64,000 bases of DNA from Sphingosinicella microcystinivorans (lineage in GTDB: Bacteria > Pseudomonadota > Alphaproteobacteria > Sphingomonadales > Sphingomonadaceae): contig NZ_CP116005.1 of the NCBI RefSeq assembly GCF_027941835.1, positions 4,293,501 to 4,357,500 of the forward strand. Reading direction: 5' to 3'. The notes under the pieces were generated by a model. It was given only the letters and a program-made list of their open reading frames with translations. It ran no database searches and was not told the origin of the DNA. Below are positions 12,501-39,834 of this stretch, in pieces. Position numbers and translations under genes: made by a program. Position 1 is the first letter of the stretch; each line of letters starts with the position of its first letter.

Positions 12501-12517
12501 TTTCCGTTCTCCCAGAA

Positions 12518-21983: not shown

Positions 21984-24900
21984 ATGGCGGATGAAGGCCC
22001 GGAACCGCTCGCGGCCGAAGCGCATGAAATCGCCACGCGTCACCGCCTCGCCGGGCTGAAAGCGAAACCGTCGGCACTGCCTGCACGATCCGGGCTCCCG
22101 GAGGCACGCGCATGGCTGGAACGGGCGCGGGTCGCTGCGGGCGCCGCGGGGCCGCAGGGCAGTGCGGCGGCGGAATGGCTGCTCGACAACGACTACCATG
22201 TCCAGCGCGCGATCCTCCAGATCCGGGAAGACCTGCCGTCCCGCTTCTACAATCGGCTGCCCGGCCTCGCGGGGAGCGAAACGGGCGGCGGCCCGCGCGT
22301 CCATTCGCTTGCGCACGCCCTGCTTCGCGCGTCCCACCTGCAGGTCTCGCTCGCCGGCGCCGTACAGTTCGTCGACCGCTATCAGGATCAGGCCCCGCTC
22401 AGCATCGCCGAGGTCTGGGCGTTCCCGGCCATGCTCAGGATCGCCTGCCTCGAACTGCTGATCGCCAGCTTCTCCAGGCTTTTCCCGGATGTCGCGCCGC
22501 CGTTCGAGGTCCACCCCGAAGCCGGGCTTGCGGCGGCCACGGACGACACCGAATGCGTGGCGCGGTCCATCGCCAACCTCGCCGTCATCTCCACCATCCA
22601 GTGGAAGGATTTCTTCGACCGGACGAGCCGGGTCGAAGCGATCCTGCGGCGTGATCCGGCGGGCGTGTACCCGCGGATGGATTTCGAGACCCGCGACCGC
22701 TACCGGCACGCGATCGAGAAGCTTGCCGTTCATGCCCGGCGCCCCGAATGGGAGGTCGCGGAAAGGGCGCTGGCGCAGTGCCGCAGCGACCACGACATCC
22801 CCTCGGGACATGTCGGCTACTGGCTGGTCGACGCCGGCAGGCCGATATTCGAGGACGCGATCGACTCGCGCCCCTTCGCGCTGGAAGCGCTGGGGCGCCG
22901 CGTGCTGCGCCATCCCGGCGCGCTCTACACGCTCGCGCTGCTGCTGGCGGGCCTCGCCGCCTTCGTCGTCCCCGCGCTCTATCTTGCCTCGGTCGAGGCG
23001 ACGCTCATGTCATGGCTCCTGGGGATTGCCCTGACCATCCTTCCCGCGTCCGTCCTCAGCGTCACGGTCGTCAACTGGCTGGTGACGCAGATCGCATCGC
23101 CGCGCGTGCTTCCCAAGCTCGATTTCAAGGACGGGATGCCCGCCGATTGTCCGACCGCCGTGGTGATGCCGGTCCTCGTGGCCCGGGTCGCGGATGTCCC
23201 CCCTCTCCTCCAACGCCTCGAAAACCATCATCTCTCGAATCCCGATCCGATGCTGCGCTTCGTCCTGCTGAGCGATCCCGCCGATGCCGACGAGGCGGTC
23301 CTCGCCTCGGACGCCGCGGTCGAACAGGCGCTCGCCGAGGGGATCGGCAGGCTCAACGACAGGTACGGCGGCGACGATGGTGCCCGTCCCTTTTGCCTCA
23401 TGCACCGGCCGCGCCTCTACAATCCGGCGCAGGGCTGCTGGATGGGATGGGAGCGCAAGCGCGGCAAGCTGGAGCAGTTCAACCGCTTCGTTCTCCACGG
23501 CGATCTTGCCCCTTTCAGCCTGACCGCCGGGGAGATCGAGGTGCTGCGGCATGTCCGCTTCGTCGTGACCGCGGATGCCGACACGCGGCTTCCGCCCGGC
23601 GTGGTGAACCGCATGGCCGCGGCGCTGGCGCATCCGCTGAACACGGCCCGGTTCGATCCGGCCGGCGGCCGCGTCGCGCGCGGCTACACGATCCTGCAAC
23701 CGCGCGTGGAGATCGCGCCCGACGCCACGGGCCGCTCGCCGTTCTCCCGCATCTATGGCGGCGACACCACGATCGACATCTATTCCCGCGCGGTTTCGGA
23801 TGTCTATCAGGACCTGCTCGGCACCGGCGTCTTCATCGGGAAGGGCATCTACGAGGTCGCTGCGTTCGAACGCAGCCTCGAAGACCGGATTCCGGAGAAC
23901 CGCCTGCTCAGCCATGACCTGTTCGAGGGGTTGCACGGGCGGGTCGCGCTGGCCACCGACATCATCGTCTACGAGGGGTTCCCGTCCGCCTATCTCGACT
24001 TCGCATGGCGCTGGCATCGCTGGGTCCGCGGCGACTGGCAAATCCTCGCATGGCTGTTTCCCGTCGTGCCGGGGCGCGGCGGCAGATGGCTGCGCAATCG
24101 CCTGGACTGGTTCGACCGGCTCAAGATTTTCGACAATCTCCGCCGCAGCCTCGTCCCCGTGAGCACGGTGGCGTTGCTGCTCGGCGGCTGGTTCGTGCTT
24201 CCCGGCAGCCCCTGGGTCTGGACGCTGCTCGCGATCGCCGCGCCCGGTGGATATCTTTTCACGGAACTGGTCACGGGGCTCGCGCAGGGACGCCGCCGCG
24301 GCGTCGTGCAGAGCCTGCTGCGCCGTCTCGGCGATCATACCGTGCGCTGGCTGCTGGCCATCGTTTTCCTAGTCAGCGACGCCGCCATCGCCCTGCACGC
24401 CATCGCGGTCACGCTCGGACGGCTCGTTTCGGGACGCCGGCTTCTCGAATGGACGTCTGCGGCGCACATGTCCGCGCGCCTCGCGGAGCGCCCGCCCCGC
24501 ATGGCCGCGTGGCGGGACATGGCCGCCTCGCCCGCGCTCGCGCTGGCGGCCGGGACAGGACTGGCCCTGAACGCGCCCCCGGTGCTCGCCGTCGCCGCGC
24601 CCCTTCTGCTGCTTTGGCTGCTGGCGCCCGAGATCGCGCTCCGGGTCAGCCGCCCGCTGCGGCCGCCGGCCGAGGAGATCGACGCCGCCGACCGAAAGTT
24701 CCTGCGCGCGATGGCGCGCCGCAACTGGCTCTTCTTCGAAAGCTTCGTGCGGCCGGAGGACAACTGGCTGCCGCCCGACAATTATCAGGAGCCTCCCGAC
24801 GAGGACACGGCGCACCGGACATCGCCCACGAACATCGGCATGATGATGCTCTCGGTGCTGACCGCGTGGAAGCTCGGCCACATCGGGCTCAACGAAGCCG

Positions 24901-27900
24901 AGATGCGGCTGCGGAACGCGCTCGACGCCATCGACCGGCTGGAACGCTACCGGGGTCACGTTCTCAACTGGTACGAAACGCGGACGTTGCAGCCGCTTGA
25001 GCCGCGCTACGTCTCCACGGTCGACAGCGGCAATCTCGCGGTCAGCCTGGTCGTCGTCCAGCAGGCGTTCCGGGAGGCCGCGCGCGGACCGGCAGCCGGC
25101 GACGAGTCGTGGCCGGGCCTTCTGGACGTGATCGACCTGCTCGACGAAGCGATTGGCAAGGCCGGTCTGCCGCCTTCCCCGGAATGCGACACGCTCGTCG
25201 CGGCGATGCGCGGCGTCGCGGCCGCGCCCGGACAGGACGGCATGCGCCGCGCCGGACATCTCGACGCCCTGTGCGATGCCGATGCTCCGGCGCTGCGGCA
25301 TCTGGTCCATGACCGCATCTCGAACGCCGGGGACGCGGATACCGAGGCGCTGCGCGACGTGCAGATCTGGCTGGAGCGGCTCGATCACCACCTGATGAGC
25401 ATGAGGCGCGATCTCCGGATGTTCTCGCCGTGGCAGCCGCTGATCGCCCATTCGCCGGCCGATTGCCGCGAATTCGCCGAACAGGTCGCGGCGGCGCTGG
25501 CGGCCGCCGCGACGACCATGGCGCCGAACGGCGCGCTGGACGCCGCGCGCGCCAGGATCGAGGCTTCCATCGCGCCGCTGGCCCCGTCCGAAGCCCGCAC
25601 GTGGATGGAGGAGGTCCGCTCCGCGATCGGGAGCGGCATCGCGGCGCGACAGGCGCTGCGCAAGCGTCTGGAGTCGGTCGCCGGGCGGGCGGGCGCCCTT
25701 GCCCGCGGCATGGACTTCGCCCTGCTTTTCGACGCGAACAGCCGCCTCTTCCACATCGGCTACAATCTCAGCGCCGACCGCATTGATCCCCATCACTACG
25801 ACCTGCTGGCGAGCGAGGCCCGGCTGGCGAGCTTTTTCGCCATCGCCAAGGGCGACGTCGCGCCCGGGCACTGGTTCTATCTGGGGCGTCCGATCACAAA
25901 GAAGGCGTCCGGGCTGGCGCTCGTTTCATGGAACGGGTCGATGTTCGAGTATCTGATGCCGAACCTGTTCCTGCGCAGCGACCCGGAAACGCTGCTCGGA
26001 CAGAGCGACCGCACGGCGGTCGATGTGCAGGGTGCCTTCGCGCGCGCCCGCGATATGCCCTGGGGCATATCGGAATCGTCCTATGCCGCGATTGGGCAGG
26101 ACCGGATCTATCGCTACCACGCCTTCGGCGTTCCCGACCTCGGGCTGCGGCGCGGACTGGGGCGCGACCTCGTCGTCGCGCCCTACGCAACCGCGCTGGC
26201 GCTTGCGGTCCGCCCCGGCATGGCGGTGCGGAACCTTCGTGCGCTCGCCGGGCTCGGTCTCGTCGGCCGGTACGGCTTCTACGAGGCCGCGGACTTCACG
26301 CCCGAACGCAGACCGGCCGGAGACGATTTCGCGCTCGTCCGGTCCTACATGGCGCATCATCACGGCATGAGCCTCGCGGCGATGGGCAATGCGCTGTGCG
26401 GCGACATGTTCGTCGAATGGTTCCACGCCGATCCGCATATCCGGACGATCGACCTGCTGCTCAACGAGCGCATCCCGTGGGAGCTTCCGCCGGAAATCTC
26501 TCGCGTCGAGATCCGGGAGGCGGCCCCGGTGCCGGCGGGCGCCGTTCCGAACCTGCACGGCTGGAGCCCGAACGCGGCCGGAGCCGCGCGGGCATGGCAC
26601 GCCATCGGCAACGGCCGGCTCACCACCCGCCTCGCGGTCGACGGCAGGAGCAGCCTGCACTGGCAGGGCTTCGCGCTCACCCGGACGGAGGAAGCCGACG
26701 CCTCGGCCGGCTACTGGATACATCTCCGCGATCGCGAGACCGGCCTGAGCTGGCCGGTGACGGCGGACCCGGCGGGCGCGGGCGATGCGCAGGCGCTGTT
26801 TCACGCGCACCGGGCGGAATTCCATCGCCGCGAGCACGGCATTGCCGCGACCATGACGGTCGGCGTCGCGCACGGCGACGACCTCGAAATCCGCCGGATA
26901 ACGCTGGTAAACGAAAGCCATCGTCCGCGCACGGTCGATCTCACCAGCTATGCCGAAGTGGTGCTCGCGCCGCCGTCCGACGCCGCCCGCCACCCGGCGT
27001 TCAGCAAGCTCTTCGTCGGCAGCGAGCAGCTGCCCGGTCTGAACGGCCTGATGTTCGCGCGCCGCCCGCGCGATCCCGCCGAGCGTCCGCCCGTGCTGCT
27101 GCATCGGTTCATCGCCGACGATCAGGACATCGTGCCGCTCGGCGCCGAGACCGATCGCGGCGTCTTCCTCGGCCGTCACGGCGACGCCGGTTCCGCTGCC
27201 GCGATGCACGCGCGCAGGCTGTCGGGGAGCATCGGCTGGACTCTTGATCCCGCTTTCGCCCTGCGCGCGGAGCTGGCGCTTCCCGCCTATGGGCGGCGCG
27301 AGATCGCGTTCCTGACAATCGCCGCCGGGTCGCGCGCATCGGCGCTGGAAATCGCCGAGCGGTACACGACCCTGTCCGCGCTCGACTGGGCGATGAACGA
27401 TGCGGAAGGCGCCGCCGCGCGCGAGATGCACGCGCTCGGGCTGCCGCCCGGCCATGTCCCGCTGGCCCAGCAGATGCTGTCGCGGCTCCTGCAAGGCGAG
27501 CCTGCGTCATCCGCGCCGGGCTTCGATCCCCGGCAATGGAGAGGCGATCTGTGGGCGCTCGGCATTTCCGGCGACCATCCGGTGCTTCTGCTGCGCGCGG
27601 GCGACGGCCAGCGCAGCGCGGTGCTGCGCTTCCTCCTCGCCGTGAAGACGCTGTGGCGGAACCGCGGCCTCACGGTCGATCTGGTGATCGCCCACGAGGG
27701 CACGGCGGGCTATCTGGAACCGGTGCGCGAGCGGTTGCTGGACGTGCTGCGCGAGACCGGCGCGCACGAACAGCTCGGCCTGAACGGCGGCGTCCATCTG
27801 GTCGGCATCGGCCATTCCGATGCCGGACGCGCGCTCCTTATCGAACGCATCGCGCAGATCGTGCTCAATGAAGGCGCCGGTCCCCCCGGCGACCAGCTCC

Positions 27901-30425
27901 GGCACGATGCGCCCGCCATCCACGGCCCGCGCTTCTCGCCGGTCGTCGCGCCGTCCGTCCCGGCCCCGGCGCCGGGCCTTTCCCGTCCGGAGGAACTGGC
28001 CTTCGACAACGGCTTCGGCGGGTTCGCGGAGACCGGGGACTACGTGATCCATCAGGACGCCGGGGAAACGACACCCGCGCCGTGGGCGAACGTGCTGGCG
28101 AACGAAACCTTCGGCACGATCGTGACCGAAGCGGGCCTCGGCTTCAGCTGGGCGGTCAACAGCGGCGAGAACCGCCTGACGCCGTGGAGCAACGACCCGG
28201 TCCGCGATTCCCCGGCCGAATGCCTCTATCTGCGCGACGAGGAAAACGCGCGGATGTGGACGCCGACGCCGCAGCCCGCCGGACACGACTCGGCCTGCCG
28301 CGTGCGGCACGGCGCCGGTCACACGATCTGGGAAAGGGCCAGCGAGGGGCTCGAGCAGGCGCTTCTCGCCTTCGTTCCGGTGGACGACCCGGTGAAGATC
28401 GTCCGGTTGCGGCTGCGCAACCTGCTGCCGCGCGCGCGGCGGATCACCGCCACCTATTATGCCGAATGGCTGCTCGGCGCGGTGAACGGCGAACCGGCGC
28501 CGCTGCGCACGGCCGACTACGATCCCTCGATCCATGCGCTGCTCGCGAACAATCCCTGGACCGAGGACTTCCGCGAACGCACGGCGTTCCTGACGAGCAA
28601 CCTGCCGCCGCACAGCCTGACAACGTCGCGATCCGACTTCCTCGGCAGCACCGACGATCCCCGCCACCCGGAAGCGCTCCTGAACTGGGATCTCGGCGGT
28701 CGCCAGCGGTCCGCCGGCGCCGACTGCTGCGCCGCCCTGCAGGTGCATCTCGACATCGCACCGGGCGCGACGGCGGAGGTCGTGTTCGTGCTCGGACAGG
28801 GAGATGACCGCGCCCACGCGCGCGCGCTGGCACGCCGCTGGCAGGACGCCGCCGGGGCGGAGAGCGCCCGGCTGCAATGCCGCGACGACTGGGAGCGGCG
28901 GCTCGGCGCGGTCACGGTCAGCACGCCCGACCCGGCGTTCGACCTCGTGATCAACCGCTGGCTCCCCTATCAGGCGGCCAGTGCGCGGATACGGGCGCGC
29001 GCAGGCTTCTATCAGGCCGGCGGGGCCTTCGGCTTCCGCGACCAGCTCCAGGACGTGCTGGCGTTCCTCCACGCCGATCCCGGTCTGGTGCGCCGCCACA
29101 TCCTCACCGCCGCGGCGCATCAGTTCGAGGAAGGCGACGTCCTCCACTGGTGGCATCCGCCGTCCGATCGCGGCGTGAGGACACATTGCTCTGACGACAT
29201 GCTCTGGCTGCCCTATGCCGTCGCCGCCTATGTCGAGGCGACGGGCGACGCCGCCATACTGTCGGAACAGGTCGCGTTCCTGCGCGACCCCGCGCTCGCC
29301 GTGGGGGAGGCCGACCGCTATGCGCACTTCGAGGCCACTGACTACAAACGGCCGCTGTTCGAACATTGCGAGCGCGCCCTCGACCGCGCCTACCGGCTGG
29401 GGGCGCACGGACTGCCGCTGATCGGGACCGGCGACTGGAACGACGGCATGAACCGCGTGGGCGCACACGGCCGGGGCGAGAGCGTCTGGATGGGCTGGTT
29501 CCTGACGGCGACCATCGACGGCTTCACGCGCCTGTGCGACCGGCTCGACCGGCCCGATCTTGCGGACCTGTGGAAGGCGCGTGCCACGGCGCTCGTCGAG
29601 GCCGTCGAGCGCGCGGGCTGGGACGGCGACTGGTATCTGCGCGCCTTCGACGACGACGGCCGGCCCTGGGGTTCCGCCGCGAACGACGAATGCCGGATCG
29701 ATTCGATCGCCCAGTCCTGGGCCGTGCTGTCGGGCGCCGCGGACCCCGATCGCGCGGCGCGGGCGATGGCCTCGGCGCGCAAGCATCTGGTCCGCGAGGG
29801 CGACGCGCTCGTTCGCCTGCTCGATCCGCCCTTCGACCGGACGCCGCGCGATCCGGGATACATCAAGGCCTATCCGCCGGGCATCCGCGAGAACGGCGGC
29901 CAGTATACCCATGCCGCCGCATGGCTGGGCATGGCGTTCGCCCGGCTGGGCGACGGCGACGGCGCGAAGGCCCTGTTCGATAGGATCAACCCGATCAACC
30001 GGGCGGCGACACGCGAGGACGCCCTGCGCTACCGGCTGGAGCCTTATGTCGTCGCGGGCGATGTCGCGGGCGAGCCGCCGCATGTCGGGCGCGGGGGCTG
30101 GAGCTGGTATACCGGCGCCGCCGGATGGACGTGGCGGCTCGGCGTCGAGGAGATTCTGGGGATACGCCTCGTCGAGGGCCGCGTGCGGATCGCGCCGTGC
30201 CTGCCCGCGGCCTGGCCCGGCTTCGAAGCAATCCTGAGACAGCCGACGGGCGCGCTCCGCATCATCGTCGACACGCCGGACGGGGCAGTCCCCGACCGCG
30301 CCGAAATCACGCTCGACGGCGCCCCATGGAACGAGGAAAGCATCCCCTTCCCCGAGGACGGGTCGATGCGCGAAGTCCGCGTGCGGCTACCGCGCGCGGC
30401 GCAAATGGCTACGTCGGAAGGATGA
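21984..30425 (+). CDS. cgs: Cyclic beta-1,2-glucan synthase (NdvB/ChvB/Cgs type)
   Basis: At 2813 residues this matches the very large family of cyclic glucan synthases. The GT84 glycosyltransferase domain lies in the first third, with the DAD motif at about 531-533 and RWHRWVRGDWQI as the QxxRW-like element. Membrane helices lie near 310-375 and 725-900. The middle holds the glucoamylase-like and carbohydrate-binding regions, and the C-terminal part is a GH94 phosphorylase module whose acid is Asp2487 in GDWNDGMN. The enzyme initiates, elongates, trims and cyclises periplasmic glucan from UDP-glucose. Such glucans buffer osmotic stress and shape host interaction in rhizobia and Brucella. Confidence 0.95.
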   Translation: MADEGPEPLAAEAHEIATRHRLAGLKAKPSALPARSGLPEARAWLERARVAAGAAGPQGSAAAEWLLDNDYHVQRAILQIREDLPSRFYNRLPGLAGSETGGGPRVHSLAHALLRASHLQVSLAGAVQFVDRYQDQAPLSIAEVWAFPAMLRIACLELLIASFSRLFPDVAPPFEVHPEAGLAAATDDTECVARSIANLAVISTIQWKDFFDRTSRVEAILRRDPAGVYPRMDFETRDRYRHAIEKLAVHARRPEWEVAERALAQCRSDHDIPSGHVGYWLVDAGRPIFEDAIDSRPFALEALGRRVLRHPGALYTLALLLAGLAAFVVPALYLASVEATLMSWLLGIALTILPASVLSVTVVNWLVTQIASPRVLPKLDFKDGMPADCPTAVVMPVLVARVADVPPLLQRLENHHLSNPDPMLRFVLLSDPADADEAVLASDAAVEQALAEGIGRLNDRYGGDDGARPFCLMHRPRLYNPAQGCWMGWERKRGKLEQFNRFVLHGDLAPFSLTAGEIEVLRHVRFVVTADADTRLPPGVVNRMAAALAHPLNTARFDPAGGRVARGYTILQPRVEIAPDATGRSPFSRIYGGDTTIDIYSRAVSDVYQDLLGTGVFIGKGIYEVAAFERSLEDRIPENRLLSHDLFEGLHGRVALATDIIVYEGFPSAYLDFAWRWHRWVRGDWQILAWLFPVVPGRGGRWLRNRLDWFDRLKIFDNLRRSLVPVSTVALLLGGWFVLPGSPWVWTLLAIAAPGGYLFTELVTGLAQGRRRGVVQSLLRRLGDHTVRWLLAIVFLVSDAAIALHAIAVTLGRLVSGRRLLEWTSAAHMSARLAERPPRMAAWRDMAASPALALAAGTGLALNAPPVLAVAAPLLLLWLLAPEIALRVSRPLRPPAEEIDAADRKFLRAMARRNWLFFESFVRPEDNWLPPDNYQEPPDEDTAHRTSPTNIGMMMLSVLTAWKLGHIGLNEAEMRLRNALDAIDRLERYRGHVLNWYETRTLQPLEPRYVSTVDSGNLAVSLVVVQQAFREAARGPAAGDESWPGLLDVIDLLDEAIGKAGLPPSPECDTLVAAMRGVAAAPGQDGMRRAGHLDALCDADAPALRHLVHDRISNAGDADTEALRDVQIWLERLDHHLMSMRRDLRMFSPWQPLIAHSPADCREFAEQVAAALAAAATTMAPNGALDAARARIEASIAPLAPSEARTWMEEVRSAIGSGIAARQALRKRLESVAGRAGALARGMDFALLFDANSRLFHIGYNLSADRIDPHHYDLLASEARLASFFAIAKGDVAPGHWFYLGRPITKKASGLALVSWNGSMFEYLMPNLFLRSDPETLLGQSDRTAVDVQGAFARARDMPWGISESSYAAIGQDRIYRYHAFGVPDLGLRRGLGRDLVVAPYATALALAVRPGMAVRNLRALAGLGLVGRYGFYEAADFTPERRPAGDDFALVRSYMAHHHGMSLAAMGNALCGDMFVEWFHADPHIRTIDLLLNERIPWELPPEISRVEIREAAPVPAGAVPNLHGWSPNAAGAARAWHAIGNGRLTTRLAVDGRSSLHWQGFALTRTEEADASAGYWIHLRDRETGLSWPVTADPAGAGDAQALFHAHRAEFHRREHGIAATMTVGVAHGDDLEIRRITLVNESHRPRTVDLTSYAEVVLAPPSDAARHPAFSKLFVGSEQLPGLNGLMFARRPRDPAERPPVLLHRFIADDQDIVPLGAETDRGVFLGRHGDAGSAAAMHARRLSGSIGWTLDPAFALRAELALPAYGRREIAFLTIAAGSRASALEIAERYTTLSALDWAMNDAEGAAAREMHALGLPPGHVPLAQQMLSRLLQGEPASSAPGFDPRQWRGDLWALGISGDHPVLLLRAGDGQRSAVLRFLLAVKTLWRNRGLTVDLVIAHEGTAGYLEPVRERLLDVLRETGAHEQLGLNGGVHLVGIGHSDAGRALLIERIAQIVLNEGAGPPGDQLRHDAPAIHGPRFSPVVAPSVPAPAPGLSRPEELAFDNGFGGFAETGDYVIHQDAGETTPAPWANVLANETFGTIVTEAGLGFSWAVNSGENRLTPWSNDPVRDSPAECLYLRDEENARMWTPTPQPAGHDSACRVRHGAGHTIWERASEGLEQALLAFVPVDDPVKIVRLRLRNLLPRARRITATYYAEWLLGAVNGEPAPLRTADYDPSIHALLANNPWTEDFRERTAFLTSNLPPHSLTTSRSDFLGSTDDPRHPEALLNWDLGGRQRSAGADCCAALQVHLDIAPGATAEVVFVLGQGDDRAHARALARRWQDAAGAESARLQCRDDWERRLGAVTVSTPDPAFDLVINRWLPYQAASARIRARAGFYQAGGAFGFRDQLQDVLAFLHADPGLVRRHILTAAAHQFEEGDVLHWWHPPSDRGVRTHCSDDMLWLPYAVAAYVEATGDAAILSEQVAFLRDPALAVGEADRYAHFEATDYKRPLFEHCERALDRAYRLGAHGLPLIGTGDWNDGMNRVGAHGRGESVWMGWFLTATIDGFTRLCDRLDRPDLADLWKARATALVEAVERAGWDGDWYLRAFDDDGRPWGSAANDECRIDSIAQSWAVLSGAADPDRAARAMASARKHLVREGDALVRLLDPPFDRTPRDPGYIKAYPPGIRENGGQYTHAAAWLGMAFARLGDGDGAKALFDRINPINRAATREDALRYRLEPYVVAGDVAGEPPHVGRGGWSWYTGAAGWTWRLGVEEILGIRLVEGRVRIAPCLPAAWPGFEAILRQPTGALRIIVDTPDGAVPDRAEITLDGAPWNEESIPFPEDGSMREVRVRLPRAAQMATSEG

Positions 30426-30428
30426 ACG

Positions 30429-31490
30429 TCATTTCGGTGCAGACAGGATCAGATGACCCGGCACGACCTCCGTCACTTCGACACCCGTCATGATGTGCAG
30501 CGCTTCGACGAAGCCCTCGACCTCGCCCGCCTTGAAGTAGCCCGCAATGGGAATGTCGCGGAGGTCGTCGCCGCGAATCTCGATGTCGACGTCCGAATAG
30601 CGGCCGACCTCGACAACGACTTCCGAAAGCGGCTCGCCCGCGAAGGCAAGCATACCTTCCCGCCACGAGAGTTTCCGATCAATCTCTGCGGGCGTCACAT
30701 GCTCCAGCAGCTCGACCTGATCGGAAGAGAAGAGCGCGCTCTGGCCGGCCGTCAATTCCATGACGGTGGCGGCCGGCGCCTTCTTGATGCGCACGTTGGC
30801 CGGCGGCGATGCCAGCGACAGGGCGACGCGCCCTTCCGAAACCATGACATCCAGCTTGTCCGCCTTGAGACGAACCGAGAACGCCGTGCCGACCGCTTTT
30901 ACGACACCGTTGCCCGCATACACCGAGAACGGTTTGGATTTGTCCGGCGCGACTTCGAAAAACGCTTCGCCCTGCAACAGCGTGATGCGCCGCTCCGTCG
31001 TGGTGAAGGCGGCGGCGATCCGGCTATCCGTATTGAGCGTCACCCGCGAGCCGTCGGGCAGGTTCACGATTTCGTGCCCGCCCACCTCCGTCCTGTAGTT
31101 TGCCGCAAAGGCCGAAGGTTGCGCTTCGAAGCCGGATGACCCCCAGTCCAGAAGCTGGCGACCGGCAAACGCACCGATCGCGACGACGGCGATCAGCATT
31201 GCGGCAAGAAGGGGCAGCGCGGCACGCACGCGCTGGCGGAATGGCGGGGCGGCGTACACATCCCGGGAGGCGTAATCGTTCAGGCCATCGAGGGCGTCGA
31301 GGCCGTCCCACAGGCGCGTGTAGCGTTCAAAGGCATCCCGATTGTGATCGCTTTCCGCCTGCCAGCGCGCAAGCGCCGCATGTTCGGCTGGCGTCATCTC
31401 GCCGCCCTCCAGACGCGCAACCCATTCGGCGGCTTCCGCCTCGCTCTTCTTCATGTCGGGAAGAAGATAGATGTTGTCCGGCTCAGTCAT
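30429..31490 (-). CDS. FecR-family anti-sigma / sigma-regulatory protein
   Basis: The protein has 353 residues from the ATG at 31490, overlapping the sigma gene by 8 bases. A cytoplasmic N-terminal domain with EAAEWVARLEGGEMT (DUF4880-like) and ALARWQAESDHNRDAFER precedes one membrane helix (about 95-115). The periplasmic FecR domain includes VNLPDGSRVTLNTDSRI and LLQGEAFFEV, and the C-terminal STN-like end includes IPIAGYFKAGEVEGFVEAL. FecR proteins receive the signal from a loaded TonB receptor and control the ECF sigma factor. The receptor at 35842-38583 has the matching STN domain. The gene is convergent with cgs, 3 bases apart. Confidence 0.92.
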   Translation of the reverse strand: MTEPDNIYLLPDMKKSEAEAAEWVARLEGGEMTPAEHAALARWQAESDHNRDAFERYTRLWDGLDALDGLNDYASRDVYAAPPFRQRVRAALPLLAAMLIAVVAIGAFAGRQLLDWGSSGFEAQPSAFAANYRTEVGGHEIVNLPDGSRVTLNTDSRIAAAFTTTERRITLLQGEAFFEVAPDKSKPFSVYAGNGVVKAVGTAFSVRLKADKLDVMVSEGRVALSLASPPANVRIKKAPAATVMELTAGQSALFSSDQVELLEHVTPAEIDRKLSWREGMLAFAGEPLSEVVVEVGRYSDVDIEIRGDDLRDIPIAGYFKAGEVEGFVEALHIMTGVEVTEVVPGHLILSAPK

Positions 31491-32097
31491 TGATCTTGCG
31501 CACTTCCATTTCGGCGTCGGCCCGGGCAGCCATTCTGAGTACCGTGCCTGTCTGTGGCTTCGCCGCGCGGGGAGCCCCGAACTCGGTCGGGTCATAGCCC
31601 TGATCCCGCAAATAGGCGTTGCAGGCCGTCAATGCCGCGGCGACGCGTTTTTCGACCGTGCTCAGCGAAACATCGAGCCTCGCCGCGATCTGCTTGAACT
31701 TCAGCTTTTCGACCTTGCACATCAGCAGCGCCTGACGCAGCTCCGGTTTCAGGCTGGCGATCGCCTGGGACAGGACGAACAGCTTTCGCCGGCCGTCGAC
31801 CTGATCCTCGACAGTCCCGTGCCGGTCATCCGCAAAGACGTCCGACCGCCCGGAATCCTCGAACGATTCCGTCGCGCTGTGCGCCTTGCGCGCCGCCTCG
31901 CTGATGGCGAGGTTTTTCGTCACCCGAACGAGAAAGGCCTTCGGGTTCCGGATGTCCTGCTTTTCGCTGGCCGCGTAAGCACGCAGGAAGGCCTCCTGAA
32001 CAAGGTCCTCCACGTCGTCGCCGCGGCGGCGATAGCGCGCCGCCACCCGTCGGAGCGACGTTTCACATTCCAGGAAAGCGCGCAGCAGACCAGACAT
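31483..32097 (-). CDS. ECF sigma factor, FecI-like
   Basis: The 204-residue protein has sigma region 2 with DVEDLVQEAFLRAY and NPKAFLVRVTKNLA, and region 4 with LKPELRQALLMCKVEKLKF and the helix-turn-helix IAARLDVSLSTVEKRVA. It is somewhat longer than the usual 170-190 residues because of a C-terminal tail after about residue 170. The ribosome site is weak. It is followed directly by FecR with overlap, the standard FecI/FecR pair. The 116 bases between it and the M19-like gene upstream could hold its own promoter; I saw no clear one. Its likely target is the receptor-peptidase operon. Confidence 0.92.
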   Translation of the reverse strand: MSGLLRAFLECETSLRRVAARYRRRGDDVEDLVQEAFLRAYAASEKQDIRNPKAFLVRVTKNLAISEAARKAHSATESFEDSGRSDVFADDRHGTVEDQVDGRRKLFVLSQAIASLKPELRQALLMCKVEKLKFKQIAARLDVSLSTVEKRVAAALTACNAYLRDQGYDPTEFGAPRAAKPQTGTVLRMAARADAEMEVRKIND

Positions 32098-32213: not shown

Positions 32214-33341
32214 TCAGCTGCCGATGCTCGCCGCATAAACCCGCATCCAGTTTTCGCCCATCACCTTGTCGATCTCTTCCTTGCTCCACCCCCGGCGGAC
32301 CATCTCGGCGCGAACCGCCGGCAGCTTCGAAATGTCCTCGAAGCCCTGCGCATACTGGATCGGGTCCTGAACATAGGTCATCTCCGGCGGGAACGCGAAG
32401 GACTCGTCAGGATGGATGACGGACGTCGCGCCCGTCGTGAAGTCGCCGCCGATGCCGATATGATCGACCCCGACGAGCCTTTTCAGATAATCGAGTTCAT
32501 CCACGTAGCGCTTCACGTCGGCACGCCGTTTCGGCGCCTTGCGCTTGCCGACGTCGTCGCGGCCCCAGCTCATGAACGGGTCGATGGCGCTCACCCCGAA
32601 GAGGCCGCCGGTTCCGGCGATCCCCTCGATCACGCGGTCGGAGGTGTTGCGCGGGTTTGCGTTGAGCGCCGCGACATTCGAATGCGTGCAAACGACAGGC
32701 CGCTCCGCCATCGCGATGATGTCGAGACTGGAGCGTTCCCCCGTATGGCCGCCGACATCCACGAGGATGCCGAGCGACTGCATTTGCGCGACGATTTCCC
32801 GCCCCGCCTTGGTGAGGCCGACGTGCGGGTCAAGGCAGCCGCCGGCAAAGGCATTGGTCAGGTTGTAGATGAGGCCGGCGACGCGAAGGCCGAGGTCGTA
32901 GAAGAGCCGCATCGTCGTCTTCGGCGGTTTCGACCACCAGTCGCTTTCGCCTTTCATCACGAAGAGATCGGCTTCCTGCCAGCCGATCGTGAGGGAGATC
33001 TTGCCTTCCCGCTTGATCCGGCGGATGTCGGCGGCGGTTTTCGCGATCTCCACATCCTTTGAATTCTGCGCCGCGAACTCGAGCAGCTGCGACATCTGGA
33101 GAAGCGTCGGCAACATGCTGACGTTCCAGCAATCGACACCGCCCTTGCGGAGCAAGGCAAGATACTCGGGCGTCGGTGCGGCCGGGCTGCACCCGTCGAC
33201 GACAACCGGCCCGATCGGCGCCGCTTCCGCCTCGACCGTACCGGCAACGGCGGAACCGGCCGCAGCCGTGCCCGTTGCGGCGGCAAGAAGGCTCCCACCG
33301 GCGAATTTCATCAGTCCGCGACGGTTCATTTCAGACGTCAT
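32214..33341 (-). CDS. M19 membrane-dipeptidase-like protein with altered metal site, Tat signal
   Basis: The 375-residue protein starts with a Tat-type signal, NRRGLMKFAGGSLLAAATG. Its fold markers are those of renal-dipeptidase family M19: CTHSNVAALNANPRNTSDRVIEG, cut here to its key part THSNV with His, VGVDHIGIGGDF, and GLTKAGREIV. The usual N-terminal DGHxD metal motif is replaced by VDGCSPAAP, and the usual SHVS is replaced by GGHTGERS. It may therefore bind one metal, or act on another substrate, or be a non-catalytic homologue. The ATG at 33341 overlaps the S9 peptidase stop (TGATG) and follows GGGAGA by seven bases, so the genes are coupled. Confidence 0.82.
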   Translation of the reverse strand: MTSEMNRRGLMKFAGGSLLAAATGTAAAGSAVAGTVEAEAAPIGPVVVDGCSPAAPTPEYLALLRKGGVDCWNVSMLPTLLQMSQLLEFAAQNSKDVEIAKTAADIRRIKREGKISLTIGWQEADLFVMKGESDWWSKPPKTTMRLFYDLGLRVAGLIYNLTNAFAGGCLDPHVGLTKAGREIVAQMQSLGILVDVGGHTGERSSLDIIAMAERPVVCTHSNVAALNANPRNTSDRVIEGIAGTGGLFGVSAIDPFMSWGRDDVGKRKAPKRRADVKRYVDELDYLKRLVGVDHIGIGGDFTTGATSVIHPDESFAFPPEMTYVQDPIQYAQGFEDISKLPAVRAEMVRRGWSKEEIDKVMGENWMRVYAASIGS

Positions 33342-35779
33342 CACTCAGTCTCCCGCAAAACCTGCTCCGCCCTTCGCGCGAACGGCATCGGCGGCTCCTG
33401 ATGCTTCAAATGCCGGACGAAGAATCCCGCGAGCCGGCGCACCACATAGGGGTGATACCCGACATCGTGGGCCGCGTTCGGAACGTACACGAGGTCGAAT
33501 TCCTTGCCGGCCCTGATCAGCGCGTCCGACAGCGCGACGGTCTGGTTGAAGGGCACGTTCTGGTCGATCTCGCCGGCGACCAGCATCAGCCTGCCCTGAA
33601 GGCGATCCGCGAGGTGCAGATTGTCGACCCGTGCATAGGCATCGTCCCCGCCCCCGGGAACGCCGAAGAATCGCTCGAGCGAGATCGACGAGATCATGGT
33701 TCGATAGTCGTGCGGGCCCGCGATCGAGACGGCGGCCTTGTAGAAGTCCGGAAACAACAGGATGGCGCGTGCCGAGGCGTAGCCGCCGAACGAAATGCCG
33801 GTGATGCCGACGCGCTCCAGATCCATATAGGGCCGGGTCGCAGCGGCGGACCTGATCCCGGCGACATGATCGGCGAGCGCGAACGAATCCTCGTCCTTCA
33901 TCGGCGCCGTGTGGAAAGCCCTCGATCGCCGCGGCGTGCCGCGCCCGTCCTGAATGACGATGACGAACCCCAGTTCCGCGAGCGCCTGCATCCACGCGGC
34001 GCGCGCGCCGAGCGCGTCCGTGAACCCCTGCGGCGCGAACGACACCTGCGGGCCGGCATAAATCTGCTCGATCACCGGATAGCGCCTGCGCTTGTCGAAA
34101 TTCGTCGGCTTCAGGAGAACGCCGTGGATGTCGTGCGCGCCGTCGGCGCTTTTCGCGACGAAGCGCTCCGGCGGCGACCACCCGGCCTCGAACAGCGCGC
34201 CTGCATCCGCATCGACGAGATCGGCGATGAGCGTGCCGTCTGCCGAGCGCACGACCGTGCGCGGCGGTTCCGACACGGTCGAGTAGGTGTCGACGAAATA
34301 GCGCCCGCTGGGCGAGAAGCGGCGCACCGGCGTATCGTAGTGCCCGTTGAGGCCCCGCGCCGGAAAGTTCGTGTAGGCGTGGTCCGCGTTCTCCGGCGTC
34401 AGCAGCTTCAGGCCGCTTCCGTCGAGATCGACGCGGTACAGGTGGCGATAATAGGGATTGCGCCCCGCCTCCCTGCCGCCCGCCGTGAAATAGACGACGC
34501 CCGCCGCCTCGTCGACGCGGATGATGTCGAAGACCACCCAGTCGCCCTTGGTGACGGCATTCCTGAGCGCGCCGGTTCTCGCATCGTAGCGGTAGAGATG
34601 CCCCCAGCCGCTGCGCTCCGACCACCAGAGCAATTCGCCGCGGCTCGCCAGCAGGCGCACGTTGGGCACATGGTAGTCGAAAGGGTTGAGGTTGAGATAC
34701 TGGTCATCCCGCTCTTCGAGCACCGTCCGGCTCGTGCCCGTTTCGAGATCGACGGCAACCACGCCGAGCGCGCGCGAATCGCGTGTCGACGTCACGAGGT
34801 AGAGCGTGCCGTCCTCCATGTCCCAGCCGGGCTCGCCGACGATCGCCCAGTACGGCGCATAGTCGTTGAAACCGAGCGCGCCGCCATCGACCGGAACGAC
34901 GCGGCCGCTTCGGCGGTCGATCAGCGAAAGAGCATGGCGCGTCCTTGGCGCGTCCCCGGGGGTCGGCATCGCGATCTCGTGCGCGATCGGGCGCGGCGAA
35001 TCCGGGGCGAGATACTCGACGACATAGGGCGCGGCCTTCACGCCCCGGTCGTCGGTGCGCACGGCAAGAATATAGCGCCCGTCCGGGGACCAGCTTGCGC
35101 CGGGATAGGTCGGCGCCTCCAACCCGCGGCGCTCCTCCACGTAGGTCGTCTTGAAGGCCGTATACCGGTAGGGAAACGCCGCCGTCCCGTCCGTCGTCAG
35201 CGGCCGCTCCCGGCCGTTCGACGTGTCGCGCAGCCAGAGATTATGGTCGCGGGCGAAAACCGCGTGCGCACCGTCCGGAGAGAGGGCGGCGGCCGGGTCG
35301 GACGCCGCCTCAACCCTTGTGCTGCAGAACACGGCGTCGCGGCTGCATTCGAACGTCTTGTCGCCGGCCGAGAAGATGACCCTTTTCAAGCCGTCCGAGT
35401 ATCGGAAGGACGCGAACGGCAATTTGCCCGGCGAAACCGCCTCGCCGAGTTCGAGCGAAAGCATCCGTGCGATCGCTTCATGATTGAAGGACGGCGCGGC
35501 GTCTCCGGTCGCCGCGTCGACGGTCTCGAACCGGAAGCCGCCGCTGTTCTCCCGGCGATACCAGAACTGGTCGGTTTCCCCGATCCAGTTCGGAACCGGC
35601 GCAGCGTTGAGGACGAGACTGCGGACAGCGTCCGGATAGAACTGCGCCGCACGCTCGAAATCGGCGCGCGTCAGATCAGGCGCCCGGTCGCTTGCTCCGA
35701 ACCGGTCAAGGCCTCCGCACGATCCGGAAAGCAGCATGAGCGCTCCGGCCAGTGCCCTCCACGCCAATCCCCTCGACAT
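33341..35779 (-). CDS. S9 prolyl oligopeptidase, dipeptidyl-peptidase-IV-like, exported
   Basis: The 812-residue protein has a signal peptide with a weak lipobox-like end (LSGSC). The DPP4 beta-propeller follows (about 100-540), with segments such as LSPDGAHAVFARDHNLWLRD and SWSPDGRYILAV. The C-terminal alpha/beta hydrolase has the nucleophile in GISFGGYASA, the acid Asp in VAGEIDQNVPF and His in AAHDVGYHPY. The family removes dipeptides from peptide N-termini, often after proline. The gene follows the receptor by 62 bases and is coupled to the M19-like gene. A periplasmic or outer-membrane site of action is inferred. This strongly suggests that peptides are the receptor's cargo. Confidence 0.92.
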   Translation of the reverse strand: MSRGLAWRALAGALMLLSGSCGGLDRFGASDRAPDLTRADFERAAQFYPDAVRSLVLNAAPVPNWIGETDQFWYRRENSGGFRFETVDAATGDAAPSFNHEAIARMLSLELGEAVSPGKLPFASFRYSDGLKRVIFSAGDKTFECSRDAVFCSTRVEAASDPAAALSPDGAHAVFARDHNLWLRDTSNGRERPLTTDGTAAFPYRYTAFKTTYVEERRGLEAPTYPGASWSPDGRYILAVRTDDRGVKAAPYVVEYLAPDSPRPIAHEIAMPTPGDAPRTRHALSLIDRRSGRVVPVDGGALGFNDYAPYWAIVGEPGWDMEDGTLYLVTSTRDSRALGVVAVDLETGTSRTVLEERDDQYLNLNPFDYHVPNVRLLASRGELLWWSERSGWGHLYRYDARTGALRNAVTKGDWVVFDIIRVDEAAGVVYFTAGGREAGRNPYYRHLYRVDLDGSGLKLLTPENADHAYTNFPARGLNGHYDTPVRRFSPSGRYFVDTYSTVSEPPRTVVRSADGTLIADLVDADAGALFEAGWSPPERFVAKSADGAHDIHGVLLKPTNFDKRRRYPVIEQIYAGPQVSFAPQGFTDALGARAAWMQALAELGFVIVIQDGRGTPRRSRAFHTAPMKDEDSFALADHVAGIRSAAATRPYMDLERVGITGISFGGYASARAILLFPDFYKAAVSIAGPHDYRTMISSISLERFFGVPGGGDDAYARVDNLHLADRLQGRLMLVAGEIDQNVPFNQTVALSDALIRAGKEFDLVYVPNAAHDVGYHPYVVRRLAGFFVRHLKHQEPPMPFARRAEQVLRETE

Positions 35780-35841
35780 ACGCGTCTTCCCAAGGCAAGG
35801 ACGGCGGCGCCTCGCCGGGCGCCGCCGTCATCCACGTATCG

Positions 35842-38583
35842 TCAGTAGCGGACGGTGAACGTCAGGCCCGTCGTCCGCGGCCTGTTGATGAAGGCCGACG
35901 ACCTGTTGCCGTCGAGCACACCGCCCACCAGCGTCGCCGCGCTCGTCGGAATGGTGATCGCCTGAAGTTCCAGATCGTTGAAGACGTTGTTCATGTAGGC
36001 CGTCAGCGACCACCGCTCGGTTTCAAGGCCGAGCCGCAGGTTCAGCATCTCCATGCTCCCGAGCCTGCCGGACGGGAAGTTCTGCGGGAAGGTCTCGCGC
36101 TCGCCGATATACTGGAACGCAACCTGCCCGGTCAGCTCGATATCGCCCACGCCAAGCGGATAGTTGAAATCCGCGCCGGTCGAGAACGAGACCTTCGGGA
36201 CGTTCGGCGGACGGTTCCCCTTGGCAAGGTCCTGGTAGTCCGCAGGCGCGCCGCCGATGGCGAAAACGGACATGCCCTTGGTGTATTCCGCCTCCGTGTA
36301 GTTGCCGCTGAAGAACAGCGAAACATTGCGGTTCACCTTGTAGAGACTTTCGATCTCGAGGCCGTAGATGCGCAATTGCGGTCCGTTCGCCGTCAGCGCG
36401 CCCGGATTGCTGATACCGATCTGCGGCGTGTCGAAATCGGAATAGAAGCCGGCGATATTGAACGTGACGTTGCCGTCCATCCACCGGGTCTTCAGGCCCA
36501 CCTCGCCCGTCACGATATCGTCGGAGTCGTAGGTCAGCGCGTCCTCGAATGCCGGCGAGCCGACCGGGCCGAAGCCCATCGCCGAGAACGGGCTGTTGAG
36601 GCCGCCGTTCCGGACTCCCCGCGCGATCGTTCCGTAAAGCATCGCATCGTCGGTGATATCGTATTCGAATCCGGCGCGCGGCAGGAAGGTATTCAGTTTG
36701 AAATCGAAGCTGACGCCCGGCCCTCCGGGTGCGGTCAATGCCTCCACGTCGTTCGGAACCGGGAAATAGACCGGCGCGAAGATGTCGGAAGGGTCGGTGA
36801 AGATCGGGGAGAAGATGCCGATCACGTAGGATTCGACCAGCGTCGATCGCACCTTTTCGTTCACGTAGCGCGCGCCGGCGAAAAGCCGGAAGCGCTCCGA
36901 CACGTCATAGTTGAATTCCACGAACGCGGAGAACTGGCGGGTGTCCACCTTCGTGGTCGTCCGCTCGATCTCCGTCGTGCCGCTATCCGTGATGTTGGCG
37001 TAGCCGTTCCCCGAAACGAGCGCCGTGTCGACCGATTTCGTGTCCTGATAGAACGCGCCGGCGACGAAATTCAGCGGCGATTCGAAATCCGAAATGAAGC
37101 GGAACTCCTGCGACACGCTTTTTTCCTTGCCCTGGGTGCGGGCTATCGCGGTCAGATCGGACGACAGGAGGTTGCTCGCCGTATTGAAGGGCGGGAACGC
37201 GTTGAAGAAACCTTCGAAGCCATAGGTGTAGGCCGAGCTGAAGGTCTCCCCGCGGCGCTTCCGCTTGTAGAGGCCCGTGATCGATTCGATCGTCACCGGT
37301 CCGCCGCTATAGGAAATCTTGCCGCTGTAGAGTTCGAAATCGTCCTCGTTCAGACCGTCGATGAGGCTGAGCGACGGCGCAATCAGGTCTTCCGTTCCCA
37401 CCGAACTGCCGATCGTCGTCGGCTCGATGAAGTTGAGCTCGCCGATATCGTCACGGCCTATGTGCGCCGCGAGGCGGATGCTCAGGTCCTCGGTCGGCTT
37501 GAAAAGAACGACGGCGCGCCCGCCATAGGACTCGAAATCGTTCATGTCCTTCTTGTTGAGGCCGAGGTTGTCGATATAGCCGTCGTCCTTGCGATAGAAA
37601 CCGACCACGCGCACGCCGAGCTTGCCCGGAACGAGAATGAAGCTCGTCGCGTTATCGACGCGGTAGTTGAAGCCGCCATGGTTGGTGGCGCTGAGGCCAT
37701 TGCTCCACATGCCTTCGATCACCTTGCCGCTGTCGAGATCGGGGTCGGACGAGAAATAGCGGATCGCGCCGCCCATCGCGCCCTCGCCGAAATAGGTCGG
37801 CTGCGGACCGCGAAGGATCTCGATCCGGTCGAAGTCGAAGAAGTTGAAATCGCGCTGCGCCGCAGTTGCCGACGCCACGGGAATGTCGTCGACGAGTATG
37901 GACACGAGCGGCTGGAGGCGGTTGCCCGAGACCTGGATGCTGTTCGTCACGCCGCGAATGTTGATCTCGTTCGTGTTCGGGCCGCGATCGAGAAGCTCGA
38001 CGCCGGCAACCCGGTTCGACAGGTCCTCGAAATCGACGATGCCGGAACGGCGAAGCTCCCGGCCATCGAGTGCGGCGATACTGCCGCCGATATTCTGGAT
38101 GGATTCCTGGCGGAATCGCGCCGTGACCACGATCTCCTCGCGCTCGTTGCTTTCAACGGCGACATCCTGTGCCGCAGCACCATTCGCACCGAAAATGAAC
38201 GTCGAAATCCCTGCGAAGAGCGACGCCTTCAATCCCCTGCCTGCCACTTTCATCTCCCTGCCTTCACCTGTTGGTTTGGGGGTGATGACGATCACCCCCT
38301 TCTTGGTGAGGCGGGCGGAAAATCCTGTGCGCTGAAGCAGAATTGCGAGCGCTTCATCGACCGTGTGCCGTCCGAGAACGTGCGGGACGTCCCGGACATC
38401 GGCCAGATCGGGCGGGTAGAGAAGCTGCACACCGGTAAGACGCACCAGTGACGACAGCGCCTCCCCGAGAGTCTCCTCTTCGATGCGGACATCATAAGAG
38501 CGGACTTCCGGCAAAGCCTGAGCGTTCGCGGCAGCGACCACGCAGACGGCAAGGGCGCCGCCGAGCGTGAGCTGCCGTCGCAA
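35842..38583 (-). CDS. TonB-dependent transducer with N-terminal STN domain (FecA type)
   Basis: From the TTG at 38583 the product has 913 residues; GGAGG lies nine bases upstream, whereas ATGs further up (38649, 38613) have no ribosome site. A signal peptide ending AAANA is followed by an STN domain (about 28-105) with EEETLGEALSSLVRLTGVQL and LAILLQRTGFSA. Next comes a second signal-peptide-like stretch beginning with an in-frame ATG at 38253, then the plug (EEIVVTARFRQES, EILRGPQPTYFGEGAMGG) and a barrel ending GLTFTVRY. STN receptors signal ligand loading to a FecR protein, and one is encoded downstream. A GGAAAT sequence at 38710-38715, minus strand, resembles a FecI-type -35 but no matching -10 was seen. 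Confidence 0.92.
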   Translation of the reverse strand: MRRQLTLGGALAVCVVAAANAQALPEVRSYDVRIEEETLGEALSSLVRLTGVQLLYPPDLADVRDVPHVLGRHTVDEALAILLQRTGFSARLTKKGVIVITPKPTGEGREMKVAGRGLKASLFAGISTFIFGANGAAAQDVAVESNEREEIVVTARFRQESIQNIGGSIAALDGRELRRSGIVDFEDLSNRVAGVELLDRGPNTNEINIRGVTNSIQVSGNRLQPLVSILVDDIPVASATAAQRDFNFFDFDRIEILRGPQPTYFGEGAMGGAIRYFSSDPDLDSGKVIEGMWSNGLSATNHGGFNYRVDNATSFILVPGKLGVRVVGFYRKDDGYIDNLGLNKKDMNDFESYGGRAVVLFKPTEDLSIRLAAHIGRDDIGELNFIEPTTIGSSVGTEDLIAPSLSLIDGLNEDDFELYSGKISYSGGPVTIESITGLYKRKRRGETFSSAYTYGFEGFFNAFPPFNTASNLLSSDLTAIARTQGKEKSVSQEFRFISDFESPLNFVAGAFYQDTKSVDTALVSGNGYANITDSGTTEIERTTTKVDTRQFSAFVEFNYDVSERFRLFAGARYVNEKVRSTLVESYVIGIFSPIFTDPSDIFAPVYFPVPNDVEALTAPGGPGVSFDFKLNTFLPRAGFEYDITDDAMLYGTIARGVRNGGLNSPFSAMGFGPVGSPAFEDALTYDSDDIVTGEVGLKTRWMDGNVTFNIAGFYSDFDTPQIGISNPGALTANGPQLRIYGLEIESLYKVNRNVSLFFSGNYTEAEYTKGMSVFAIGGAPADYQDLAKGNRPPNVPKVSFSTGADFNYPLGVGDIELTGQVAFQYIGERETFPQNFPSGRLGSMEMLNLRLGLETERWSLTAYMNNVFNDLELQAITIPTSAATLVGGVLDGNRSSAFINRPRTTGLTFTVRY

Positions 38584-38779
38584 GCTCAACCCCTCCCTTT
38601 TCCGGCCGGGCATAACGGCGCATATCGGATCTTCACACCAGCCCTGCAAATGAAGACTGGCGCGGTGCGAAAACCCGTAAAATTTTCTTCAAAGAAACGT
38701 CGCAACAATATTTCCCCGCGATCCGCACACGGAACCCGGCCGGCATAGCCTGCTTCACGGGTGACGCATAGGCTTCAAC

Positions 38780-38793
38780 ATACATCATTGTAT
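38780..38793. promoter_or_regulatory. ATACA-N4-TGTAT palindrome upstream of the STN receptor
   Basis: ATACATCATTGTAT has perfect 5-base arms and overlaps the stop codon of the DUF1611 gene. It lies about 197 bases upstream of the receptor start. A palindrome with the same arms and spacer length occurs at 40954-40967 before the carrier operon. Confidence 0.45.
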
Positions 38794-39834
38794 TTTCAGC
38801 TCTTTGCCCTCGGCCGCATCGGCCCGAGGGAAATCGGCCAGCACGTCCACGACGGTCTCAACGCCCGTCCGCATCGGATCGAAGCAGGCGAGTCCCGTCT
38901 CTTCCTCCGTCCGAAGCAGCGTCTCGAACGCCTCGCTTTCGGGCATCGCGGACGTGTTCAGCGATATGCCGACGAAGCGCGCCGCGGGATTGGCCGCGCG
39001 CGCCAGCGGCAGGTAGGCGTTCATGGCCTCGCTGACCGTCGGGCATCGGACGTGCGGGAAATCGTTCAGCCTCTCCCGCAGCGGATCGTCGCAAAGGACG
39101 AGGGCATCCGGCTGCGAGCCGTAGAGCAGCCCGAGCGTCACCGGGGCATAGGCGGGATGAAGGATCGCGCCCTGCCCCTCGATCACGTCCCAGTGATCCG
39201 GATCGTTGCCGGGCGACAGCATCTCCGCGGCGCCCGAGATGAAGTCGCCGACCACGGCATCGACCGCAATTCCGCCCCCGGCAATCAGGATGCCGGTCTG
39301 GCCGGTCGCGCGGAAATCGGCCTTCAATCCCCGCGCCTTCATTCCCCGCGCGATCGCCATCGCCGTATATTTCTTTCCCAGCGCGCAGTCCGTTCCGACG
39401 GTCAGCAGGCGTAGCCCGGAACGGGGTTTGCCGTTGCCCACCGGCAGGGAAAGCGTGTTGTGGCGCACGTCGTGGAGCGTGCGGCCGAGCGTTGCCGCCA
39501 GCTCCGCGATTTCCGGAATATCCTTCAGTCGGCTGTGGAGCCCGGACGCGATGTCGAGCCCGGCCCGAAGCGCGGCCTGCAAGACCGGCACCCAGTGCGC
39601 CGGCAGCACGCCGCCCTGCGGCGCGATACCGATCACGGCGGTTTTCGCGCCCTCCTGCGCAGCTTGTTCCACCGTCATCCGGGGCAGGCCGAGATCGACC
39701 GCGTCCTCGGAGAATACGAGCTGGCTGATGCAATCTTCGCGCGCCCAATCGCGCAGGCCGAACGCGGTCTTCGCGTTGCGCGGGTTGGTCATGTCGCCGA
39801 TAAGGAGAAGAAACGGCTTCTTGATCGTCAGCAT
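38785..39834 (-). CDS. DUF1611 family protein (DgcN-like)
   Basis: The 349-residue protein starts with MLTIKKPFLLLIGDMTNPRN and contains the P-loop-like segment LTVGTDCALGKKYTAM near residue 150, followed by GQTGILIAGGGIAVDAVVGDF and IEGQGAILHPAYAPVTLGLL. These are marks of DUF1611, some members of which (DgcN) are reported as N-acetyltransferases in D-glutamate catabolism. The usual partner, a dipeptide-epimerase-like gene, is not in the window. The start at 39834 has AGGG close by. It is divergent from the LysR gene and lies upstream of the receptor-peptidase operon, so a role in processing amino acids released from peptides is plausible but unproven. Confidence 0.8.
   Translation of the reverse strand: MLTIKKPFLLLIGDMTNPRNAKTAFGLRDWAREDCISQLVFSEDAVDLGLPRMTVEQAAQEGAKTAVIGIAPQGGVLPAHWVPVLQAALRAGLDIASGLHSRLKDIPEIAELAATLGRTLHDVRHNTLSLPVGNGKPRSGLRLLTVGTDCALGKKYTAMAIARGMKARGLKADFRATGQTGILIAGGGIAVDAVVGDFISGAAEMLSPGNDPDHWDVIEGQGAILHPAYAPVTLGLLYGSQPDALVLCDDPLRERLNDFPHVRCPTVSEAMNAYLPLARAANPAARFVGISLNTSAMPESEAFETLLRTEEETGLACFDPMRTGVETVVDVLADFPRADAAEGKELKIQ

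Follow-up and report, generated by a model that had tools for sequence, protein, structure and literature searches.

The question raised by this locus is why the gene of a TonB-dependent receptor should hold, in the middle of its reading frame, a second complete signal peptide preceded by a possible start site. The window analyzed is a stretch of 64,000 nt from Sphingosinicella microcystinivorans (NZ_CP116005.1 of assembly GCF_027941835.1, positions 4,293,501-4,357,500), and window coordinates are used throughout. The receptor frame starts at TTG 38583 with the residues LRRQLTLGGALAVCVVAAANAQA, after which comes the STN domain; the full order is outer signal peptide, STN, a linker with the second Sec signal peptide, TonB box, plug, and barrel. 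The parts of the gene are as follows.

35842-38583, minus strand: full-length STN-plug-barrel TonB-dependent receptor, TTG start at 38583 with a GGGAGGG ribosome site (sequence and Pfam)
38515-38583, minus strand: first (outer) Sec signal peptide, ending ANAQA (assigned by sequence features)
38263-38505, minus strand: STN signaling domain (Pfam PF07660 and predicted fold)
38278-38299, minus strand: perfect inverted repeat of 9 bp within the final STN strand, immediately 5' of the old ribosome site
38254-38259, minus strand: AGGGAG, the retained ribosome site of the putative ancestral unfused receptor (alignment with five unfused orthologues; pairing energies)
38251-38253, minus strand: in-frame ATG, the start proposed earlier (sequence)
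38245-38247, minus strand: GTG homologous to the start codons of the unfused genes (alignment with the five unfused orthologues)
38170-38247, minus strand: second (inner) Sec signal peptide, probably the ancestral receptor N terminus (orthologue alignment, linker comparison, selection)
38119-38139, minus strand: EEIVVTA, which we take to be the TonB box (sequence motif)
37765-38100, minus strand: plug domain PF07715 (Pfam)
35983-37239, minus strand: matched part of the β-barrel PF00593 (Pfam)

The plug and β-barrel matches both exceed their Pfam cut-offs, which identifies the protein as a TonB-dependent receptor. The STN domain scores 27.6 bits against PF07660 (E = 2.6e-6), 0.8 bits short of the cut-off of 28.4, and 29.2 bits, above the cut-off, in a second profile search of the genome; as this score is borderline, the fold was examined. 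The predicted STN domain (pLDDT blocks of 72-92) matches the PupB-complex chain 6ovk_B with Z = 12.4 and an rmsd of 1.8 over 81 residues, and also the signaling domains of FoxA, FpvA, PupA, and FecA, with Z = 10-12 to the PupB-complex, FoxA, FpvA, and FecA chains. The linker, including the inner signal peptide, was modeled with low confidence. By Pfam and fold the STN domain thus lies between a signal peptide and the TonB box, as in a TonB-dependent transducer, and the transducers FecA, FpvA, PupB, and FoxA have the same order of signal peptide, STN, TonB box, plug, and barrel. In architecture the receptor is of a known transducer type, set apart by the intact former start and signal peptide inside it. 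Our literature searches found no published record of this fusion.

The origin of the inner segment is best seen from the orthologues. Among 84,980 species genomes scanned, eight loci were found. Three are from Sphingosinicella (L012, L013, and L018, 91%, 92%, and 87% identical, respectively) and have the same order of STN, linker, and signal peptide, with the outer ribosome site GGGAGGG also kept in the alignment; L012 is S. microcystinivorans DSM 19791. The other five, from Sphingomonas and Sphingopyxis (L014, L015, L016, L017, and L019, 76-81% identical), have no STN and begin at what is here the inner signal peptide. Their start codon, GTG in four and ATG in one, aligns with GTG 38247; three of them (L014, L016, and L019) have in-frame stops a few codons 5' of the start, and a query with the STN domain found no match in the flanks of any of the five. 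At the DNA level, the unfused L014 and the fused L018 (S. soli) align closely across ribosome site, start, and signal peptide. Taken together, the starts of the unfused orthologues and this alignment indicate that the linker of the fused genes is a former leader and signal peptide now read in frame. Four more distant homologues (L039-L042) likewise lack STN and have a signal peptide at their start.

The original prediction had placed the inner start at ATG 38253, pointing to the GAAGG before it, and had offered two explanations: the recent joining of an STN cassette onto an intact receptor, or two products, a full signaling receptor and a shorter one for transport only. Its sequence and coordinates are right: the in-frame ATG is present at 38253-38251 and GAAGG, at 38265-38261, lies seven bases before it. 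The start codon, however, was probably misassigned, as the orthologue starts align with the GTG two codons later, and the Shine-Dalgarno sequence homologous to that of the unfused orthologues is AGGGAG (38259-38254) rather than GAAGG. An ordinary STN-plug linker in the homologues, which would have spoken against an inner start, was not found in the alignment; the unfused ones start at the inner signal peptide. The fusion itself, by contrast, is borne out by the unfused starts, the homologous ribosome site, and the FecI-FecR genes discussed below, and from these sequences an STN cassette very likely became joined in frame to an intact STN-less receptor. "Recent" holds only at the genus level. 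The fused gene occurs in four of the six genus genomes (four of the four that are at least 90% complete), synonymous divergence of the barrel among the fused species ranges from 0.29 to 0.86, and the fusion, being present in all four gene-bearing Sphingosinicella at a synonymous divergence of up to ~0.9, is older than the split of these species.

No donor of the STN cassette was found among 397 genomes of the family, in which the best matches outside the genus are 33-38% identical and one is 28% identical locally. When the first 233 residues were compared with the same 397 genomes, seven matched: the four fused receptors, two unfused relatives whose match begins only at residue 87 or 119, and one receptor 34% identical over both parts. 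Plasmid relatives amounted to 44 records, all below 60% identity and thus none equal to the orthologues in closeness. The STN part (38257-38583) has a GC3 of 0.70 (0.59-0.63 in relatives) vs 0.78-0.83 for the receptor, a weak hint that may fit a foreign or differently constrained origin. As a separate observation, S. soli carries another TonB-dependent receptor-like gene (L018 2624-4981) 5' of the fused receptor in place of DgcN; the locus has thus undergone more than one rearrangement on its upstream side.

The claim that a complete Sec signal peptide directly precedes the plug was upheld. Read from GTG 38247, the inner segment is MAGRGLKASLFAGISTFIFGANGAAA followed by Q, with a basic n-region, a hydrophobic core, and a GAAA-Q end. 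We examined 45 distinct linkers between STN and TonB box, taken from the window genome and from other sphingomonads, for a basic residue, a hydrophobic core, and AxA, and this pattern, a rule set post hoc with the present case already seen, occurs in 4/4 Sphingosinicella linkers and 0/41 others. One of the others (L092) is equally hydrophobic and still lacks the pattern. In a smaller set of 20 linkers, the four fused ones are the most hydrophobic (1.91-2.11, vs at most 1.38 in the other 16). Judged by these sequence features, the presence of a signal peptide in the linker is beyond chance.

Signal-peptide features are also what selection has kept here, rather than ignored as the original prediction had allowed. 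The inner signal peptide has a pN/pS of 0.23-0.25 (two computations, four species), compared with values for true N-terminal signal peptides of 0.59 across the unfused set and 0.25 for the closest unfused pair, and its synonymous sites diverge at the normal rate. The residues substituted in S. soli leave the charge, the hydrophobic core, and AAA-Q intact. In the four species compared, purifying selection acts on the inner signal peptide.

The genes that follow the receptor bear on its function and are listed in the order in which they are read.

33341-35779, minus strand: S9/DPP IV-type peptidase, the gene after the receptor in fused and unfused loci
32214-33344, minus strand: M19 membrane-dipeptidase family protein, the next gene on in fused and unfused loci
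31483-32097, minus strand: FecI-like ECF sigma factor, in 4/4 fused loci
30429-31490, minus strand: FecR-like sigma regulator (DUF4880 and FecR), in 4/4 fused loci

The order receptor-S9-M19-FecI-FecR, on a single strand in the window, is found in all four fused genomes, so that each fused receptor has FecI-like and FecR-like genes nearby, as a transducer should. FecI and FecR have omega values of 0.15-0.18. The three other fused genomes encode a FecR at 72-76% identity, the next best match among 249 genomes being 38% identical, and the genomes of the five unfused receptors encode FecR proteins at only 29-39% identity. Receptor, S9, and M19 are orthologous between fused and unfused loci (74-84% identical). 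The unfused loci, in contrast, have neither STN nor orthologous FecI-FecR: L014-L017 read PTR2-receptor-S9-M19-Lrp-DgcN, with an Lrp-like regulator in place of FecIR and DgcN after it, and L019 has the same arrangement without Lrp. In L019 (S. colocasiae), the Lrp place (12111-13383) is taken by a different ECF-like sigma factor with a short ORF after it; this sigma factor is unrelated (26% identity, E = 2e-5) and was not counted as a FecIR member. The presence of FecI-FecR in the fused loci and their absence from the five unfused ones suggest that the fusion made a cell-surface-signaling transducer. STN and FecIR coincide exactly in this sample, although, as one historical event, the coincidence counts as one data point only.

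The window genome has four STN and four FecR matches. Three of these form adjacent pairs and the fourth pair is the present one, in which FecIR lies behind two enzymes instead of beside the receptor. The FecI-FecR genes belong to the same gene series as the receptor, as in systems of the FecA-FecR-FecI type; unlike those, the locus encodes peptidases, and the linker between its STN and plug is an entire Sec signal peptide that keeps an old ribosome site and start codon. The neighboring S9 and M19 peptidases, together with a DgcN-family protein and a POT-family transporter, suggest peptide or D-amino-acid substrates. Two further features adjoin these genes. On the opposite strand, a 2813-aa ORF with glycosyltransferase, glycoamylase, and GH94 domains (21984-30425), presumably cyclic glucan synthase-like, has its end next to FecR. 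The segment 38613-38695, 5' of the receptor start, shows strong conservation across the four fused species and is probably noncoding; it may hold a FecI-dependent promoter or leader.

One could suppose that the STN part goes untranslated or is in decay, with the receptor made from the inner start only, in keeping with the intactness of that start and its signal peptide. We regard this as highly improbable, as the STN domain has a pN/pS of 0.24 and a frame free of stops and frameshifts in the four fused species, is predicted to fold with confidence, and comes with a conserved outer ribosome site and a cognate FecIR pair.

The direction of change is a separate matter, for the STN might instead be ancestral and have been lost in the Sphingomonas/Sphingopyxis clade, with reversion to the inner start. 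In two trees the five unfused receptors form one clade with support of 98/100 and 99/99, the outgroup joins near the fused L018, and the fused rows appear as a clade in only 34% and 20% of bootstraps, all of which a loss would accommodate. The first tree had uneven N-terminal trimming and the repeat tree gave the same outcome; L025 was excluded from both as too distant (24% identity). Constraining the fused rows together, on the other hand, carries no likelihood cost (p-AU = 0.54). As the fused rows are not resolved as a clade, the tree does not show gain of the STN over loss. The direction is taken from the four outgroup homologues without STN and from the complete inner signal peptide and ribosome site, which were once an N terminus, so that even a later loss would still need an earlier fusion. 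A loss is accordingly considered unlikely. We put the probability of the preferred reading, an in-frame-fusion transducer in which STN was joined to the receptor of a peptidase locus and FecI-FecR came to lie downstream, at roughly 0.85, a figure from which the making of two products is left out.

The fusion probably proceeded as follows. In the peptidase-linked locus, the STN-less receptor would originally have begun at its own GTG, with a ribosome site before it and a signal peptide after it. A segment encoding another signal peptide and an STN domain would then, in the Sphingosinicella lineage, have been joined a few bases 5' of that ribosome site, turning the old leader and signal peptide into the STN-plug linker, and a FecI-FecR pair would have come to sit downstream in the same gene series. 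In FecA-type systems, the full-length receptor signals through its STN domain to FecR and FecI. Here, likewise, the outer signal peptide would export the full-length receptor, substrate binding would shift the TonB box and the STN, the STN would act on FecR, and FecI would raise transcription of the operon. Probably the old start can still be used, and it could yield a shorter, STN-less receptor for transport without signaling. PMC9249621 describes FecA without its signaling domain as having lost regulation and kept transport, and by analogy a short product of this gene would transport but not signal.

Several properties of the old start agree with its continued use. The string AGGGAG-ATG-AA(A/T)-GTG, that is, the second start and its ribosome site, is conserved in 4/4 fused species. 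Computed anti-Shine-Dalgarno pairing amounts to -8.0 kcal/mol for GTG 38247 and -7.5 kcal/mol for ATG 38253; the receptor body has 35 in-frame start codons, of which none is as strong as the former and one as the latter. Of 38 segments along the gene, the one around GTG shows the least structure relative to synonymous shuffles in 4/4 species, and low mRNA structure still peaks there when a local codon pool is used. The 30 codons 5' of GTG have a pS of 0.134 vs 0.406 elsewhere, with 0/5000 permutations and 1.3% of circular windows as low, although low pS spans the whole STN part (0.254), beyond the old start alone. A search for a sigma-70-like promoter gave no match in 38000-38900, which says little for alphaproteobacterial promoters. 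The constraint on the inner signal peptide, the retained ribosome site, the low structure, and the low synonymous divergence fit continued internal initiation without proving it; against it, the species with the fusion are few and related, four genomes in total. That nested starts yield two outer-membrane receptors, each with its own signal peptide, one a full-length sensor and the other a transport-only form, is at present a tentative proposal to which we would give slightly less than even odds.

An equally plausible account, itself just short of an even chance, accepts the same fusion and has only the full-length transducer made, the inner signal peptide being a constrained linker or an undecayed remnant and the old ribosome site silent. 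The retained site is weaker than those of the unfused genes (-8.0 vs -11.7 to -12.4), ribosomes arriving from the STN frame would be expected on general grounds to compete with internal initiation, and the inverted repeat at 38278-38299, with an outer stem, could mask the ribosome site. It is harder to reconcile with an inner signal peptide at a pN/pS of 0.25, against the unfused values given above, with the S. soli substitutions that spare its charge, hydrophobic core, and AAA-Q, and with the weak structure of the old start in all four species. Of the repeat itself, 8 bp are kept in the other three species, and an Rfam search with E up to 0.1 found no RNA element in 35500-39000. Relative to synonymous shuffles with a gene-wide codon pool, the region gives z = 0.11, 0.48, 0.48, and -0.55, whereas with a local pool the window beginning 30 codons before GTG is more structured (z = -2.2 to -3.6); as the two nulls disagree, no structured RNA element is claimed.

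A short receptor could also arise after translation, if signal peptidase cut the full-length chain at the inner AAA-Q to give a free STN piece and an STN-less receptor. The consensus AxA site is kept in all four species, and surplus free FecA signaling domain inhibits induction according to PMC9249621. Such a cut would, for its part, uncouple the sensor from the receptor, and a stall of the inner segment as a stop-transfer helix would leave the site on the cytoplasmic side; we consider this route improbable. For the making of two products by nested starts, bacterial ClpB provides a precedent, a second in-frame start there giving a short isoform (PMC6168691). The likeness lies in a single frame, possible internal initiation, and an N-terminally shortened product; unlike in ClpB, the inner start here would carry its own export signal, and the second product is putative.

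For the annotation of such genes, the locus serves as a warning that gene callers may pick either start. It also makes the steps from transporter to sensor visible in living species, namely the unfused relatives, the exact junction, the read-through leader, and the FecI-FecR partner, and it raises the question of how the Sec machinery lets through a second, complete signal peptide within the chain that it exports. A further question is whether one gene supplies both a signaling and a transport-only receptor; if so, the ratio of sensor to transport-only form would tune the uptake-driven induction of the operon.
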